This document shows, one piece after another, positions 31,680 through 63,701 of a DNA stretch of 64,000 bases; position 1 is the stretch's first letter; every line of letters begins with the position of its first letter. The notes under the pieces were generated by a model. That model did not search any database and had not been told where the DNA came from. It worked only from the letters and a program-made list of their open reading frames with translations. Made by a program: the position numbers and the translations under genes. The DNA is from Spirulinaceae cyanobacterium SM2_1_0 (GTDB taxonomy: Bacteria; Cyanobacteriota; Cyanobacteriia; Cyanobacteriales; Spirulinaceae): positions 124,001-188,000 of the forward strand of contig JAAUTY010000002.1 in assembly GCA_012031265.1 (NCBI GenBank). The letters are read 5' to 3'.

Positions 31680-31943
31680 GCCTTCCCCCGTACCGCGATC
31701 GCGCCCGGCCGCTTATGCCCAGATCCCGGTCAACCGGCCATCTGCACGTCACCCCAAGCTCTAATGCAACCCTACGATGGTATCGGCTGGCGGCATGATT
31801 CGCGAGAGTAGAACCGAACCGTGGCAGCGCGATCGCCGCCCGCTGATGGGGATCGGGTTGACAGACAAAACTCTCACCCCAACCCCTTGTATTTTGAAAC
31901 CAGGAACGGGAGAGGGGCTTTGAAGCTAAGAGTTGTACACTCT

Positions 31944-32080
31944 TCACCGTAATTCCAGGAGAGCTCCGCGATCATAGGCTTCTGTGGTCACCCAGATGAC
32001 GATCTGCGCTTCCAGACCCGCCAGATAAGTCAAGATTTGCTCTAAGTGTGTATGGTCAGTCCCGGCGAGCTGGCTCAAAC
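31944..32080 (-). pseudogene. fragment resembling a DUF4268/PD-(D/E)XK-type protein
   Basis: On the minus strand an open segment reads SQLAGTDHTHLEQILTYLAG and then LEAQIVIWVTTEAYDRG before a stop. This resembles the core wording NQLxxTDHxHLGQLLTYxAG...VIWIA of DUF4268-type nuclease-like proteins. Only about 45 codons remain, without start or continuation; a second frame just upstream looks like debris. The surrounding 31680-32404 spacer holds no intact gene. Assignment is by recalled motif only. Confidence 0.4.
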
Positions 32081-32404
32081 ACCGCCCGAAACTCCGCAAA
32101 AGGCCCGGTGCTCCAACGTGCCCAGATCATCAACCCTCGAAAGCCAATCATTTCGCATCGTGCTCGCCTTCTCCCTGGGGGATAGTGATTCGAGGAGTTG
32201 AAAATCGGTTGCTCGAAAAAGCGAACACTCAGGGATGGAGTTTTGATTTTGCGCCTCGACCCGGGCGAGAGCCAACTAAGATGGAGAGGGTACGATTGTT
32301 CTTAAGTATATCGGTTCTCACGATCCCCAATCCGCGCAGCCCATTTCTCAAAAGGGTTTCGCTATAATTTTGCCGCTAAGCTGCGACCGATCATCCTGTT
32401 CATC

Positions 32405-33730
32405 ATGCCCAAACTCCCCAAGCGCGTGTCCACTGCCCTGCTCAATGCCCTCGCCGCTGGGGTTGTACCGCGTGTCGGTTTGGAGCAGATTGCGGTCGGG
32501 CGCGAGGCCGAGTTGCAGGCTGTTAAACAGGATCTGGCCAATATTGCCGCTGGGGGAGCTGCCTTTCGCTTCGTGGTCGGGCGCTATGGCGCGGGCAAGA
32601 GCTTCATGCTGCAACTGATCCGCAACGCCGCGATGGAAGCCGGTTTCGTGGTCGCCGATGCCGATATTTCACCAGAACTTAGGCTGGCGGGCAGTCGGCA
32701 ACAGGCGGTGGCAACTTATCGCGAGTTGCTGAAAAATCTGGCGACGCGCACCTGTCCGCGTGGGGGGGCGATCGCCCTGATCTTGGAAAAATGGCTCAGC
32801 AGCATCCTCAACCAAGTCGCGCAAACTACCGACGGCCGTCCCGGCGACTCCGAATTTGACCAACAGGTGGAAGCCAGCATTCGCACCGTGGTCAGTAATC
32901 TCGAAGGGCTGGTGCATGGCTTCGACTTTGCTAACGTGATCGTTGCCTACTGGCGCGGCTATCGTGAAGATGACACCGCCAAGAAGGATGCCGTCCTGCG
33001 CTGGCTGCGCGGCGAATTTGCCAGCAAGGTCGAGGCGCGGGCGGCGCTGGATGTACGCGCAGTCGTCGATGACGACACCTGGTACGACTATTTGAAGTTG
33101 CTGGCGAAATTTGCGGCCGACATCGGCTATCGCGGTCTGATTGTCATTCTTGACGAGGTGGTACATCTCTACAAGGTCTCGCACAGCCGCTCGCGCCAGA
33201 GCAACTACGACCGTTTGCTGGCGATGTTCAACGACACGATCCAGGGCAAGGCCGATTCGCTGGGCTTTTTTATCGGCGGTACGCCGCAGTTCGTGGAAGA
33301 TGAGCGGCGCGGTCTCTATAGCGATCCGGCTTGGCGATCGCGACTGGAGCGTAGCCGCTTTTTGCAAAATGGCTTGCAGGACAATACGGCACCGACGATC
33401 GTGCTTGATCCGCTGAGTGCGGCGCAGATCACAGCGCTGTTGCAGCAGTTGGCGGCGATCCATCGTCAGCATTATGGCTATGCCGGGGGGGTGGGCGATC
33501 GCGAGATCCAGACCTTTCAACAAGCAGTCACCAGCCGTCTCGGCGCTGATTTACTCCTCACGCCGCGCGAGATTGTCCGCGATTTCATCAGCATTCTCAA
33601 TGTCTTGCAGCAAAACCCGCCGCTCCAGTTCGCTGATCTGCTGAATCGCATCGGCCTGCAATATTCAACCGCTGCCGCGACGGCTACCCAGGCTGACGAG
33701 AGCGACGAGTTTGCCGAGTTTACGCTTTAA
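32405..33730 (+). CDS. BREX-type ATP-binding protein (DUF2791, BrxC/BrxD-like), solitary
   Basis: A 441-residue P-loop ATPase. ATG 32405 starts MPKLPKRVSTALLNALAAGV. Walker A is GRYGAGKSFMLQ (about residues 59-66) and Walker B is IVILDEVVHLYK (Asp250-Glu251). HYGYAG, LLTPREIVRDFISILNVL and the acidic tail match the DUF2791 ATPase family. Relatives sit in BREX loci or in operons with TerB-domain proteins and an Lhr-like helicase, thought to be anti-phage. Here neither partner is present: upstream lies a 0.7-kb spacer with a nuclease-like fragment, and downstream a convergent TPR-like gene 21 bases away. Confidence 0.75.
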   Translation: MPKLPKRVSTALLNALAAGVVPRVGLEQIAVGREAELQAVKQDLANIAAGGAAFRFVVGRYGAGKSFMLQLIRNAAMEAGFVVADADISPELRLAGSRQQAVATYRELLKNLATRTCPRGGAIALILEKWLSSILNQVAQTTDGRPGDSEFDQQVEASIRTVVSNLEGLVHGFDFANVIVAYWRGYREDDTAKKDAVLRWLRGEFASKVEARAALDVRAVVDDDTWYDYLKLLAKFAADIGYRGLIVILDEVVHLYKVSHSRSRQSNYDRLLAMFNDTIQGKADSLGFFIGGTPQFVEDERRGLYSDPAWRSRLERSRFLQNGLQDNTAPTIVLDPLSAAQITALLQQLAAIHRQHYGYAGGVGDREIQTFQQAVTSRLGADLLLTPREIVRDFISILNVLQQNPPLQFADLLNRIGLQYSTAAATATQADESDEFAEFTL

Positions 33731-34983: not shown

Positions 34984-35888
34984 TCACTCACGCTCCGGAT
35001 CGTGAGGATTGCGGCGTGATCGCCATGGCCGCAATACGAACTGCACCACCTGCGGCTGAGTCAACAGGCCCTCACGGGGACTGAACAAAAACGCCAGCCC
35101 AAAAAATCCGGTCGCCACCAGCACGATCGCCGGCCCTGAGGGCAGATTGTAAAAATAGCTCAGATACAGCCCGCTGAGACTCGCCAGCACCCCGAGACCG
35201 ACGCCCACCGCCATCATTTGGTGCAGGCGAGGCACGAGCAGATAGGCCGTAGCCGCCGGGGTGATCAGCAGCGAGAGCACGAGGATGACGCCCACGGCTT
35301 TGAGGCTGGCAACAATGGTCAGGCTCATCAAGACCATGAGGCTGAGATCCAGCCAGCGCACCGGCAGCCCGACCGCCTGCGCTCCGCCTTTATCAAAGGT
35401 GTAGAAGAGGAGTTCTTTGTACAGTACAGCGGTCAGAATGATCACCAGGATGGCGACGAGCAGCGTATCGCGCACATCGCTGGCGGTGACGCCGAGGATG
35501 TTGCCGAATAGGAAGTGATTGAGGTCGATTTTGTGATCTTTTGAATCACCGTGATCAGAGTGATGCCTAGGGCAAAGAAGGCCGAAAAGACAATCCCCAT
35601 CGCCGTGTCTTCCTTGATCGGCGAGTAGAGGTGAATGAGGGTGATGCAGGTGGTCGCGACGACACAGGCCGCAAACGCACCGATGAAGATATTGCCGCCG
35701 AGCCAAAAGGCGATCGCCAGTCCCGGCAGCACTGAATGGCTGATCGCATCGCCGAGGAGCGCCAGTCGCTGCACGATCAGGTAGCTGCCGACGATTGCCC
35801 CAATCGCGCCGACGGCGATCGCCACGATCAGCGATCGCTGCATGAAGCTGTATTGCAGCGGTTCGAGCAGCAGATTCAGGCTGTCCAT
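34984..35888 (-). pseudogene. Mn/Zn ABC transporter permease (MntB/ZnuB type), frameshifted
   Basis: The gene starts at ATG 35888, overlapping the ATPase stop by one base (TAATG). The first frame gives MDSLNLLLEPLQYSFMQRSL and membrane spans up to ITLITVIQK; the second frame continues DHKIDLNHFLFGNILGVTAS and further spans to the C-terminus. The break lies at a run of four A residues (35539-35542 on the plus strand as TTTT), where five would restore QKDHKIDLNHFLFGN. Thus one base is missing from a homopolymer: a real mutation, slippage, or a sequencing error. With it corrected the protein is about 300 residues, normal for an ABC-3 permease. Confidence 0.8.
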
Positions 35889-36643
35889 TACGCCGCCTGC
35901 ATCGCCGCGCCTTGGAAGAAGCTGATATGACCACCGTAGGCGCGGTAGAGGTTTTCGGGGCGCATGACTTCGTGGCGGGGGCCGACAGCGATCAGCTCGC
36001 GATTGAGCAGGACGAGGTTGTCGAAGTTGGCGATCGCTTCGCCCAGATCGTGATGCACGACCAGCACAGTTTTGCCCGCTGCGGCCAGCGCTTGAAACAC
36101 CTGGAATAGCGTCGCCTCGGTCTTGCGATCCACGCCCGTGAAGGGTTCATCAAAGCAGAAAATCTGGGCATCCTGTGCCAGCGAGCGAGCGAGGAAGACG
36201 CGCTGTTGTTGACCGCCAGAGAGTTGACCGATGGGGCGATCACAATAGTCCGCCATTTCGACGCGCGCCAGCGCCTGCCGAGCAATGTGGCGACTCGCGG
36301 CTGAGTAGCGACGCAGCCAGCCAGTGCGGCGAACCCGACCCATCATCACGACATCCCAGACAGTAGCGGGATAGGTCCAGTCGATCTGCGATCGCTGCGG
36401 GACGTAGGCAACTTCAGCGAGTTGCTCTTGCAGCGGGCGATCGCCATAACAGGCCGGTTCGCCAGCCACGGGGATCAGACCCAACAATGCTTTGAGCAAC
36501 GTGCTTTTACCCGCACCATTGGGGCCGATGATGCCAGTGAGGTGACCCGGTGGCAAATCGAGATTGATTTGATGCAAAGCCTCGACGCTACGGTACTGGA
36601 CACTGAGAGCGCGGGCGGTGAGCATGGCGGGTTGACTAGACAT
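35888..36643 (-). CDS. Mn/Zn-type ABC transporter ATP-binding protein
   Basis: A 251-residue ATPase, start ATG 36643 (MSSQPAMLTARALSVQYRSV). Walker A is IIGPNGAGKSTLLKALLG, the signature [16 protein letters not shown], Walker B IFCFDEPFTGVD and the switch region VVHHDLGEA. YVPQRSQIDWTYPATVWDVVMMGR is typical of the MntA/ZnuC/TroB metal-transport subfamily. It is coupled to the permease gene. The solute-binding protein, which should complete the importer, is not in the adjacent DNA, so it is either elsewhere or lost. Confidence 0.88.
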   Translation of the reverse strand: MSSQPAMLTARALSVQYRSVEALHQINLDLPPGHLTGIIGPNGAGKSTLLKALLGLIPVAGEPACYGDRPLQEQLAEVAYVPQRSQIDWTYPATVWDVVMMGRVRRTGWLRRYSAASRHIARQALARVEMADYCDRPIGQLSGGQQQRVFLARSLAQDAQIFCFDEPFTGVDRKTEATLFQVFQALAAAGKTVLVVHHDLGEAIANFDNLVLLNRELIAVGPRHEVMRPENLYRAYGGHISFFQGAAMQAA

Positions 36644-60073: not shown

Positions 60074-61120
60074 ATGAAGGGAGAGGTGTTAAAGCGTTTA
60101 TTCCGTGCTGTTGCCAGTGATGACTCACAGGCGATACAAAGCATGTTGTCCATCGTGGTAGAGGAAGAACGCAAGCTAGGGCATACCATCCTTGCTAATC
60201 AACTCGAAAGCATTCTGCGGAAAAGCACCCATCTTGCCAAATCCGAAAATTCATCATCAGACTCTGTACGAGAAAGCCCTTCAACTTCTTTAGAGAGAGC
60301 CGCGTCTAAAGCATCCGACACACATACTCTCACCCTCTTATCGAGTAAACATAGATTCAATCATCCGTTTATTGTTACGATTCCTCGTGACAATTTGCGG
60401 CATCATATGATCCTTGCCGATGCCGTAGAAACACGATTTCGCCGTATTGAACGGGAATACGCTGCTCGTGATCGACTTGCCCATCATGGGTTGCGCTATC
60501 GCCAAAAGATTTTGCTTTACGGTTCTCCAGGATGCGGCAAAACGATGGGAGCCGAGCGTATTGCTTGGAATACAGGTTTAACTTTGGTCAAAGTTCGCTT
60601 CGATGCAATGGTATCTTCCTATTTAGGAGAAACTGCTACTAACCTACGCGAAGTATTTGAGACTGCTACTGCATTTCCATGTTTGCTCTTTATTGATGAA
60701 TGTGATGCATTGGCAAAATCTCGCGAAGATAGCCAGGAAGTTGGTGAAATTAAACGGGTAGTTAATACATTCCTTCAGCTACTTGACGAGTATGAGGTCT
60801 CAAATGGGTTGCTAGTTGCTGCAACTAATCTAACTAAATTTCTAGACGAAGCTGTATGGCGAAGATTTGATGATGCTATTGAAGTACCAAAACCGACAGA
60901 GCGAGAAATTGAGGTTATCCTGAAGCAGACACTCTCTTCGGTTGAAGTTGGCTCAATCGATTGGAACTCGATTATTCAGAAGATGATCAATTTCTCGGCT
61001 GCACAGGTTGTCAGGGTTGCTCAAGACGCTGCGAAACGAGCCATTCTGGATCGAGAAGAGTTAGTCATCCAAGAGCATCTAGAAGAATCAATTCAAGACG
61101 TTTTAGCTTCTCATGTCTGA
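60074..61120 (+). CDS. AAA+ ATPase, IetA-like partner of an S8 protease
   Basis: A 348-residue AAA+ ATPase. Residues about 1-90 are a poorly conserved helical/charged leader. Motifs: Walker A GSPGCGKTMGAERIAWNTG (150-157), Walker B CLLFIDECDALAK (Asp208-Glu209), sensor-1 Asn252 in AATNLT, arginine fingers in VWRRFDDAIEVPKPTEREIE, and a helical sensor-2 region to the end. The type resembles FtsH/p97-like AAA ATPases. In the known IetAS anti-phage systems such an ATPase is paired with a subtilase. Its stop codon overlaps the start of the protease gene by eight bases. AT-rich codon use marks it as foreign. Confidence 0.85.
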   Translation: MKGEVLKRLFRAVASDDSQAIQSMLSIVVEEERKLGHTILANQLESILRKSTHLAKSENSSSDSVRESPSTSLERAASKASDTHTLTLLSSKHRFNHPFIVTIPRDNLRHHMILADAVETRFRRIEREYAARDRLAHHGLRYRQKILLYGSPGCGKTMGAERIAWNTGLTLVKVRFDAMVSSYLGETATNLREVFETATAFPCLLFIDECDALAKSREDSQEVGEIKRVVNTFLQLLDEYEVSNGLLVAATNLTKFLDEAVWRRFDDAIEVPKPTEREIEVILKQTLSSVEVGSIDWNSIIQKMINFSAAQVVRVAQDAAKRAILDREELVIQEHLEESIQDVLASHV

Positions 61121-63701
61121 GCGATCGGAACAATTCAAGCACATTCCACTAAGACTCACAAAAGCAGATTTTGCGCGTCCTGGAAGACCACCTCGGCGAT
61201 CTGATCGCTCTAATGCCAATCGAGGAGATGCAGGCGGCCATGGCGGGAAGCTCAAGTCTTCTGTATCCTCTATTATTTCTGATTGGAAAGATACCCTTGA
61301 AAAACGTCGGCAAGAAGGAATGCCGGATATTCCAAATGTCCCTTCATTTTTACTTCAAGTAGACCCAAAATCATTTGACGCAGATGAATTAAGAAAGTTT
61401 GGTATTGAAGTCATTCTTGAACTGGAAGATGGCTATATTCTTGGCGCTTCAGCGGATGCAGAGTTAACCCAGCTTCAGCAGAAAATCGAAAATTTTATTA
61501 CGGCTCAAGGTAACCTTCAAGTTGCTGAAATCTGGAACATATTGGAAGGTAGGTTTGCGCGTCTAGAATACATACTGTCGCCAGATTTGCTTGCTCGATG
61601 GGATCAGATTCTGGATGATCACATTTACATAGTCGATGTCAGCATTGCCTGTGTAGGTCTAAATTCTAAATTTTCAGAATATCCACGCCAACAAGAGAAT
61701 GAAGACCCTGAGAGATACGCTCGTAAGGTTGCTAGATGGACTGATAGGCGTGACCAAACTTTGCAGGAATGGGAAAAGCTACAACTCGATAGAGAAAATG
61801 ATTTTGAAGACTTTGTAAGAAAGCTTGATGGAACATTCCTTCTGCTTGGTGACCATGATGATCGTTCGCATCTTGCACTTTTGCCCGATAGTTTCTCTAG
61901 TCGCATTGAGATTTCTGGCAAGGGCTTGAAAGATTTAGTTGTCAATTATCCCTATGTTTTTGAGGTTAGCGAACCAGATCAAATTGCTGAACCATTAGCC
62001 GATCGTACTATAGCAACAAGTGATCAACCTCCATTTACACTTGAGCCGCCGCCGCCATTAGCTCCAAAGGTCTGCATCATTGACAGTGGCATCCAAGAAA
62101 GCCATCGTTTCTTACGAGTTGCTGTAGATAGCAATAACTCGCGATCATGGGTTCCTAATGAGACTGATCAAAAAGTAGATCGTGTATCAGGTGGTGGGCA
62201 TGGTACACGAGTCTCTGGAGCAGTTTTATATCCTCAAGGAGTTCCACGTACTGGTCGGCAAACAGCAATCTGTTGGCTTCAAAACGCCAGGGTTTTAGGA
62301 CAGGATTGCAAGTTTCCGGACAAATTATACATACCAGAAGTCTTAAATGACATTGTAGATTTCTATCATTCCCAAACAAGTACTCGCATCTTTAATCACT
62401 CAATTAATAGTTCAGCCCCTTGTCGAAGAACTTACATGAGTGCTTGGGCTGCTGAAATAGATTACCTTGCTTGGCAAAAGGACATTCTTTTTATTGTTTC
62501 AGCCGGAAACCTCCCTACTGTTCGACTTCCAGGACTGAGTATTACTCGCAAGGCTCTCACAAAGCACTTTGAGGAAGGGTGTGCATATCCAGATTTTTTA
62601 CTAAAGGATTCGTCTCGGATCGCTAATCCTGCCCAAAGCTTTCAAGCTTTAACTGTAGGATCGATCGCTCATTGTACCTATAATCGTCCACCGACTACTT
62701 CTGTGGCATTACAAGACTATCCTTCAGCATTTTCCTGCACAGGCTATGGCATTTGGGATTCGATAAAGCCTGAAGTCGTTGAGTATGGCGGAGATCTCGT
62801 CAAGGACGAGGGGAATCCGCCTAGCTTTTCTACACCTACGGATGTTTGCCCCGAGTTAGTAAGGACGACGATTGGGGGAGCGCCAGCAGTTGCAGCGGAT
62901 AATATCGGCACTTCCTTTGCAGCACCTAAAGTGACTCATATTGCAGCAGCCTTGGCATCTAATTTCCCACAGGAAAGTTGCTTGCTCTATAAAGCTTTGA
63001 TTGTGCAATCAGCAAGATTACCTGCATGGGCTAATGATGAACCTGATCTTTCCTCAGCTATCCGTATGATGGGATACGGTTTGCCTAATCTTGAGCGTGC
63101 GCTTGGTAATGCACCTAATCGTGTGACATTGATTACTAATGGGGATAGTCTAATCCAAGCGCGACAAGCACATATTTATCAAGTGATCATTCCAGAAGAA
63201 CTGCTATCTCCAGCAGAAGCTTTTGATATTCTTATTGAGATTACACTTTCTTATAAAGCTGAACCACGTCGAACACGGCGTAATAAACGCAAATATTTAT
63301 CCACTTGGTTACATTGGGAATGTAGTCAAAAAGAAGAATCACCAGATAGATTTTTAGATAGGGTTCTTGAAAAATACGAAGCTTCTGAGGATCAGGAAGA
63401 CGGAGCTGGATTATTCGACTGGACACTTGGACAGCAGAAAAATCATAGTAGACGGGTAAAAGACACTTCTAGAGGAGTTGGGACAATTCAGAAAGATTGG
63501 GCAGTAGTCAAATCTTTCGACTTGCGAGATACGTTCTGTATAGCAGTTGTAGCTCATAAAGGCTGGAATAATGATTTAACAGCTCAAGTGCCTTATGCTC
63601 TAGCTGTTAGTTTTGAAATCATAAATTCGGAAGTTTCTATTTACAATTCATTTGTCCAAGCTCAAGCCTCATTACAAGTGCAACAGCAAATTCATGTATG
63701 A
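61113..63701 (+). CDS. S8 subtilase-family serine protease, IetS-like
   Basis: An 862-residue protein, ATG 61113 overlapping the ATPase gene. After a charged N-terminal region of about 315 residues comes a subtilisin-like S8 domain: Asp324 in VCIIDSGIQESHRF, His363 in GGGHGTRVSGAV and Ser601 in GTSFAAPKVTH, with the oxyanion Asn in NHSINSSAP or SAGNLPT. Thus the triad is complete. The long C-terminal region (about 250 residues) lacks a known domain. No signal peptide is seen, so the protease should act in the cytoplasm, controlled by the coupled ATPase. Architecture matches IetS in IetAS systems. Confidence 0.85.
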   Translation: MSERSEQFKHIPLRLTKADFARPGRPPRRSDRSNANRGDAGGHGGKLKSSVSSIISDWKDTLEKRRQEGMPDIPNVPSFLLQVDPKSFDADELRKFGIEVILELEDGYILGASADAELTQLQQKIENFITAQGNLQVAEIWNILEGRFARLEYILSPDLLARWDQILDDHIYIVDVSIACVGLNSKFSEYPRQQENEDPERYARKVARWTDRRDQTLQEWEKLQLDRENDFEDFVRKLDGTFLLLGDHDDRSHLALLPDSFSSRIEISGKGLKDLVVNYPYVFEVSEPDQIAEPLADRTIATSDQPPFTLEPPPPLAPKVCIIDSGIQESHRFLRVAVDSNNSRSWVPNETDQKVDRVSGGGHGTRVSGAVLYPQGVPRTGRQTAICWLQNARVLGQDCKFPDKLYIPEVLNDIVDFYHSQTSTRIFNHSINSSAPCRRTYMSAWAAEIDYLAWQKDILFIVSAGNLPTVRLPGLSITRKALTKHFEEGCAYPDFLLKDSSRIANPAQSFQALTVGSIAHCTYNRPPTTSVALQDYPSAFSCTGYGIWDSIKPEVVEYGGDLVKDEGNPPSFSTPTDVCPELVRTTIGGAPAVAADNIGTSFAAPKVTHIAAALASNFPQESCLLYKALIVQSARLPAWANDEPDLSSAIRMMGYGLPNLERALGNAPNRVTLITNGDSLIQARQAHIYQVIIPEELLSPAEAFDILIEITLSYKAEPRRTRRNKRKYLSTWLHWECSQKEESPDRFLDRVLEKYEASEDQEDGAGLFDWTLGQQKNHSRRVKDTSRGVGTIQKDWAVVKSFDLRDTFCIAVVAHKGWNNDLTAQVPYALAVSFEIINSEVSIYNSFVQAQASLQVQQQIHV

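Follow-up and report, generated by a model that had tools for sequence, protein, structure and literature searches.

The stretch of DNA analysed here, hereafter the window, comprises 64,000 nucleotides of Spirulinaceae cyanobacterium SM2_1_0 (assembly GCA_012031265.1, contig JAAUTY010000002.1, positions 124,001 to 188,000 of the forward strand). Its subject is a sngB-like gene at window positions 32405-33730 on the forward strand, encoding an AAA+ ATPase. SngB is the ATPase of Shango, a three-gene TerB-helicase-ATPase system (PMC10250203, in its available text) with the gene set SngA-SngB-SngC in Pseudomonas and E. coli. TerB is listed among the Shango domains in the table of a review (PMC10952713), and the system has been reported in Asgard archaea (PMC11291487, likewise in the text available).

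Results

The open reading frame 32405-33730 starts with ATG, encodes 441 amino acids and has no internal stops. Its product matches the Pfam family BrxC_BrxD (which we take to be the former DUF2791) almost from end to end (E 2.3e-159, model positions 2-411 of 414), and the first-pass annotation was thus right in describing an intact DUF2791-family ATPase. The best PADLOC model is SngB of Shango (PDLC03959, 558.9 bits, positions 5-439 of 439), in line with the suggestion made there that the protein is of the kind that works with TerB and helicase partners; the BrxD model reaches 195.9 bits. In an alignment of 54 proteins, residues G59, G62, G64, K65 and S66 of the motif GRYGAGKS (residues 59-66, 32579-32602, forward strand) and residues D250 and E251 of the motif ending in DE (residues 245-251, 33137-33157, forward strand) are invariant; we take these motifs to be Walker A and Walker B, respectively. 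The C-terminal tail DEFAEFTL (33704-33727, forward strand) is a proposed docking peptide. Across 97 SngB loci, a few of which come from one and the same genome, F is found at position -3 in 94, E at -4 in 91, A at -5 in 90 and L at -1 in 87. The AlphaFold2 model of the protein has a mean predicted local distance difference test (pLDDT) score of 86.1, with values below 50 for residues 417-441, where the tail is probably preceded by a flexible linker.

No sequence relatives of the protein were found among solved chains. When the model was compared with solved folds, VIA-align ranked archaeal ORC/Cdc6 initiators first, with TnsC and other AAA+ proteins behind them. The best match was archaeal ORC2 (Z 16.4, root-mean-square deviation 3.5, 269 residues aligned), and the ORC/Cdc6 and TnsC rows as a whole had Z of 12.7-16.4 at 9-16% identity, a likeness of fold only; BrxC (9zll) appeared at rank 50, with Z 12.6. 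Foldseek alone ranks this likeness weakly (four matches with E <0.001, the template modelling score of ranks 1-4 being 0.31-0.32).

The name that Pfam gives the domain, BrxC/BrxD, invites the reading that the gene is a BrxD of the bacteriophage exclusion (BREX) system acting with a BrxHI-type helicase. The two systems do have the ATPase family PF10923 in common, and their helicases are related: the SngC of one relative (L042) matches BrxHI with 434 bits. The same SngC, however, matches its Shango model with 826 bits, and the BrxD score of the ATPase likewise falls far under that of SngB. The usual neighbour of sngB is a TerB_C-type gene and not a BREX gene, and the genome of the window contains only two PF10923 matches at E 0.001. 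On these profile scores the ATPase is an SngB of the Shango type and not a member of BREX, and we consider the BREX reading extremely improbable.

The first-pass annotation called the ATPase solitary. This holds locally, as no partner gene lies beside sngB, but not for the genome as a whole (G000), which also encodes an Lhr-like helicase of the DEAD/DEAH type, SngC, and an SngA-like protein. The three genes lie on three contigs, sngB on C75, a gene for an SngA-like protein on C58 and sngC on C66, and the adjacency of the three that marks Shango is absent. The SngC helicase (C66:10109-12231) carries one frameshift, and the model accordingly scores in two pieces of 445 and 288 bits. The break, which is consistent with one base, falls in a run of C at the site GGCGATCGCC; both sides are open, and when joined they show 52-55% identity to 15 compared genomes. 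The frameshift is possibly a sequence error, because an ABC-3 permease gene in the window is split likewise; it is also possible that sngC has decayed in this genome. The SngA-like protein is encoded by a 398-residue frame (L057:9294-10481). By eye, two hydrophobic helices at its N-terminus and a coiled coil can be made out, followed by a TerB_C-like end; it groups with SepT-like proteins and matches SngA, of which only the C-terminal part is covered (355-523 of 528, 40.6 bits, compared with 340.5 bits in the positive control G001). TerB_N was not found in G000; the control genomes were silent too, though the same model matches the SngA of G001.

To these genes may be added one observation on a small contig of the same genome. 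At L003 (G000:C122:1-3672), an unrelated start resembling a membrane protein runs into the C-terminal half of a second SngB of canonical type; a DDE transposase lies next to it, as does a weak match to a SWIM zinc finger. It is either a remnant or a chimeric contig.

The distribution of SngB and SngC was followed in two samples. The first comprised 59 genomes, including that of the window, with strong SngB defined by E <1e-30; SngB matches with E of 1e-5 to 1e-3 in G020, G021, G027, G033 and G049 and a partial helicase match of G027 (119.6 bits) were left out of the counts. SngB is present in 19 of the 59 genomes and SngC in the same 19, at full length (at least 751 bits) in 16 of them. The two genes lie apart in 11 of the 19 (G000, G002, G004 at 17 kb, G005-G010, G034 and G042), on different contigs in eight of these. 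Within the family of the window, 10 of 13 genomes have sngB, and eight members (G002, G004-G010) show the separation seen in G000, with a full-length SngC elsewhere. Named genomes gave a similar picture when scanned: among the best 80 of 578 SngB loci, 49 had no SngC in the stretch flanking sngB, some of these stretches being short or near a contig end, and SngC with at least 766 bits was found elsewhere in the genome in all 39 searched genomes of those 49 loci. The loci left out were L073, L085, L088, L099, L119, L121, L128, L135, L152 and L077; L074 (G059) comes from the same genome as G010.

The second sample consisted of 119 genomes of the family of G063 (Nostoc sp. XA010, L087), to which the name Nostocaceae was assigned in this analysis; they were taken from a larger set under the requirement that completeness be 90 or more. 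The samples overlap, G129 having the same coordinates as G046. With thresholds of 1e-30 for SngB and 1e-70 for SngC, chosen against general AAA proteins and helicases, SngB was found in 107 genomes, as a single match in 105 of them, and SngC in 105, of which 104 reached at least 790 bits (G133, 495 bits). Both were present in 103, SngB only in four, SngC only in two and neither in 10 (Fisher p 6e-10, uncorrected for kinship). In four of the six discordant genomes the gene is damaged or stands at a contig end, namely SngB with stops in G108 and G152, SngC with nine stops in G133, and sngB at a contig end in G171. Of the 103 genomes with both genes, 39 have them within 10 kb, always on the same strand, and in the other 64 they lie apart, either more than 10 kb from each other on one contig (25 genomes, 18 of these with more than 290 kb between the genes) or on different contigs (39 genomes). 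Pairwise distances of SngB and SngC are correlated (r 0.79 for 10 unlinked genomes, r 0.62 for all 16), a figure that is uncorrected for the species tree and is not proof of interaction. In related genomes SngB and SngC are for the most part retained or lost jointly, also where they are unlinked.

In most of the cyanobacterial loci, the gene immediately preceding sngB encodes a third protein, termed c1. It has two membrane helices, by which it would be anchored in the membrane, a coiled coil and a TerB_C domain; TerB_N is absent, and the SngA model matches only about its C-terminal half. The SngA proteins of G001, Desulfobacca, one Paenibacillus, Hodarchaeum and a Clostridia bin possess both TerB_N and TerB_C, and a Heimdall frame TerB_C only. 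In Nostocaceae, c1 was found in 116 of 119 genomes; it is present in all 107 with sngB and lies directly upstream of it in 105. The first-pass annotation had named, as an outcome that would speak against its proposal, orthologues that are always solitary and conserved in housekeeping contexts; with a c1 gene in every Nostocaceae genome that has sngB, and directly ahead of it in all but two, this outcome is not what the sample shows.

The anatomy of c1 is that of SepT (All2460) of Anabaena sp. PCC 7120, for which the available text of PMC10653889 gives two N-terminal membrane domains, three coiled-coil regions and TerB-C. According to the same text, all2460 stands in a conserved block with two genes for P-loop nucleoside triphosphatases (NTPases), one of them, all2459, downstream; All2459, a predicted P-loop NTPase, co-precipitates with a fusion of SepT to green fluorescent protein, and the fusion is located at septa and the cell periphery. 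Septal peptidoglycan and nanopores are described there as altered in sepT mutants, which retain growth and heterocysts. All2460 has 426 residues (PMC12421839, as far as available), the size of c1. Because anatomy, gene order and size agree, c1 can be assigned to the family of SepT; All2459, going by gene order and NTPase type, is then very probably an SngB. The order all2459-all2460-all2461 would then correspond to that of the loci studied here, with SngB, the SepT-type protein and, as the other P-loop NTPase, DUF815. The genome of the window differs from this arrangement in having sngB and the SepT-like gene on different contigs and in that DUF815 was not found in it. DUF815 was considered as an obligate part of the set and rejected: it occurs in 47 of the 59 genomes, far above the 19 with SngB, and is a frequent neighbour only. 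A DUF815 and SepT-like pair lies away from sngB in G026 (L072, G026:C14:113276-115943), and c1 and DUF815 genes stand side by side in genomes without sngB, e.g. G029, G035 and G055.

A tree of SngB was built from 63 chosen rows, 53 of them cyanobacterial and 10 labelled canonical (four Paenibacillus, a Clostridia bin, a Limnochordia bin, Desulfobacca, two Asgard archaea and the canonical locus of G001). The 53 cyanobacterial proteins form one clade (support 100/99), outside which the 10 canonical rows fall in 200 of 200 bootstrap trees. The protein of the window is placed among those of its own family (98/91 for the smallest starred group, 100/98 for the nine-member group), and the tree mostly follows cyanobacterial lineage. 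The linkage of sngB and sngC, judged from the stretches flanking sngB, changed 11-12 times on this tree, with at least six changes forced by well-supported branches. No wider neighbourhood of sngB or sngC is shared within the family of the window, the genes in common being mostly those of near relatives (L037/L038, L061/L062, L064/L066), except for a small protein that L043 and L048 both have next to DUF815, and some isolated matches. Outside the cyanobacteria, sngB of a Hodarchaeum bin is followed by a tandem of two frames for SngC-like helicases (L150:11305-15749).

These data bear on an alternative reading, namely that the set is an ordinary anti-phage Shango which is merely scattered, its septal association being incidental. 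All three component types match Shango models, and in PAO1, according to the available text of PMC10250203, Shango reduces plaques of several phages modestly and protects liquid cultures strongly. Beyond Nostocaceae the genes occur patchily (19 of 59 genomes). The best Foldseek matches of the SngB model include RdrA, a defence ATPase of the RADAR system. A typical island system, however, would hardly be present in 107 of 119 Nostocaceae with a tree largely grouped by lineage, and the partner is a membrane coiled-coil protein without TerB_N. Nor were any of nine neighbouring genes of the window (26.0-39.7 kb) judged to be defence genes in a PADLOC scan; the matches reflect shared folds, as in an ABC transporter ATPase (best mad3, 110 bits), an ABC1-type kinase (PD-T4-6, 26 bits) and an HtpG-like ATPase (TmtA, 26 bits). 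We regard this alternative as rather unlikely.

The intergenic stretch upstream of sngB (31680-32404) is the place where many relatives have their SepT-like gene, and there is none here. A search of the window with tblastn gave no match to SepT-like c1, SngC or DUF815 (best E 0.048, 0.078 and 0.053), and the idea that a SepT-like gene had decayed in front of sngB was dropped, as no match in the window rose above noise. What the stretch does contain, on the reverse strand, is a scrap of a DUF4268-like gene of 32 amino acids (31980-32075), known from PADLOC and from comparison with G005. A 60-residue open frame (32126-31947) matches PADLOC model PDC-S11 (E 8.5e-13 over 33 residues), which we take to represent DUF4268-type proteins, and no Pfam family. 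Its core (32075-31980) is 56% identical over 32 residues to an intact protein of G005, scoring 45.4 bits, whereas the best of 500 single-base shuffles of 31680-32404 gave 26.9 bits. The nuclease-like fragment noticed in the first-pass annotation is, on the strength of these two matches, a real remnant of about 96 bp, but it amounts to no gene and is no part of the system. As a partner of sngB it was rejected, since its family is rare (three of the 59 genomes, including this one) and the remnant is short and lies on the opposite strand.

With this scrap in view, the ATPase could be taken for the stump of a lost defence locus, as the first-pass annotation proposed: a working Shango or BREX locus would have been lost here and the ATPase would be its last intact gene on the way out. 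The frameshift in sngC, the failure to find DUF815 in a genome whose relatives mostly have it, the half SngB of canonical type on a small contig beside a transposase, and the scrap itself all fit such a history. We nevertheless do not favour it and consider it improbable. The sngB gene is intact, with its conserved motifs and tail, while SngC, with a single frameshift, and the SngA-like protein are found elsewhere. The same separation in eight family members and the presence of SngC in all 39 searched named genomes argue against local decay, as do the open frames on both sides of the sngC break with their identity to 15 genomes. The half SngB resembles canonical L035 and not the protein of the window in an alignment judged by eye. 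Orthologues in 107 of 119 Nostocaceae and in 10 of 13 genomes of the family of the window likewise tell against a stump.

Several further features of the window and genome were recorded. A second DUF4268-like (PDC-S11) gene lies at G000:C93:251-740 (L155-L157) and is matched in three separate pieces. The split ABC-3 type metal transporter permease gene is located at 34987-35888 on the reverse strand, with its N-terminal half in 35445-35888 and its C-terminal half in the frame 34987-35934, which suggests frameshift-prone sequence or a broken gene. PsaA/PsaB-like genes at 40-45 kb, together with the named genomes that stand nearest in SngB, mark the source as a cyanobacterium. Between 60000 and 64000 the G+C content drops from about 0.61-0.64 to 0.43-0.45; the genes at this end of the window, for an AAA ATPase (60074-61120) and, behind it, a subtilase (61113-63701), look like a recently acquired AAA-protease pair.

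Discussion

Taken together, the results make it moderately probable that the gene of the window codes for the SngB of a Shango-type module which in cyanobacteria resides on the chromosome in dispersed form, with a standing function in surveying or clearing DNA at the membrane or septum. The same degree of confidence, as part of this joint reading, applies to the module sharing ancestry with Shango and now belonging to the ordinary gene set of heterocyst-forming cyanobacteria. SngB has its full-length Shango match in the window, SngC in relatives, and the SngA-like protein has the C-terminal TerB_C part of SngA; unlike in Shango, the cyanobacterial genes are scattered, and two membrane helices and a coiled coil take the place of TerB_N. 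Because adjacency is often lost and TerB_N is absent, the cyanobacterial set, which would work like Shango or share ancestry with it, should not be filed as canonical Shango. The other proposal of the first-pass annotation, an ATPase with a new role, is favoured in a modified form, because the orthologues adjoin a SepT-type septal gene.

From these considerations, a hypothesis on the mechanism may be put forward. SngB, as an AAA+ ATPase resembling ORC/Cdc6 and TnsC in its predicted fold, would assemble on DNA and there load or drive the SngC helicase. Its conserved C-terminal tail may dock onto SngC or onto TerB_C, and the SepT-type protein would recruit SngB through its TerB_C end to the membrane and the division septum. 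Such an assembly would probably serve in the standing surveillance or clearance of DNA at these sites.

A number of observations weigh against this interpretation. In the genome of the window itself the trio may not work, as sngC is frameshifted; the SngA-like gene does not adjoin sngB, and its TerB_C is divergent, scoring 24.6 bits against a Pfam cut-off of 26.3. Outside Nostocaceae the genes occur unevenly, and 40 of the 59 genomes that make up the first sample have neither. The SngC model also matches control genomes (eight of 14 at 1e-30 and four of 14 at 1e-70), where it meets other Lhr-like helicases, and we therefore relied on bit scores; SngC is weak in G042 (454 bits) and G044 (274 bits), in which SngB is weak also (133 and 112 bits). 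True exceptions to joint retention exist, G110 with an intact SngB and no SngC, and G191 with SngC and neither SngB nor a SepT-type gene, and fragmented assemblies inflate the count of genes on different contigs. A SepT-type gene is kept in nine of the 12 Nostocaceae without sngB, in three of these partial or with stops. SepT therefore does not need SngB and has a role of its own, to which SngB and SngC are an added module. The equation of All2459 with SngB is drawn from gene order and NTPase type, and the top Foldseek matches of the SngB model (a mitoribosome protein, RdrA and TnsC) are weak. Finally, the coiled coils of SepT have been modelled in the periplasm (PMC12096826, in the part available), which would complicate a tether for a cytoplasmic SngB. 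The C-terminus of SepT is described as cytoplasmic in the available text of PMC10653889, and a TerB_C that binds SngB favours this topology over the periplasmic model.

A more specific version of the hypothesis is also conceivable, and we advance it only tentatively, as one that is somewhat more apt to fail than to hold. SepT, SngB and SngC might constitute a DNA machine anchored at the membrane and septum, Shango-type immunity having been taken over for housekeeping in multicellular cyanobacteria. TerB_C would hold an ORC-like ring of SngB, which would load SngC onto DNA at the closing septum; alternatively, the substrate may be foreign DNA entering or spreading between cells. If this were true, the peptidoglycan and nanopore defects of sepT mutants would be tied to DNA handling.

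The words Shango, helicase, phage and defense are absent from the main text of the SepT paper (PMC10653889), and no publication tying Shango to cyanobacterial SepT or All2459 was found in a search to which subscription papers and supplements were external. The dispersed module proposed here would hence join two literatures hitherto unconnected in what was found, that on Shango, a phage-defence system, and that on SepT, a septal protein of multicellular cyanobacteria whose co-precipitating NTPase is given no function in the available text. If the proposal is right, the ATPase and helicase of Shango can be studied in a genetically tractable organism, for which mutants of their partner and data on its localisation and interactions are already at hand. 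It may also follow that genes of the defence type can scatter over the chromosome and yet stay selected together, in which case tools based on adjacency would miss them.
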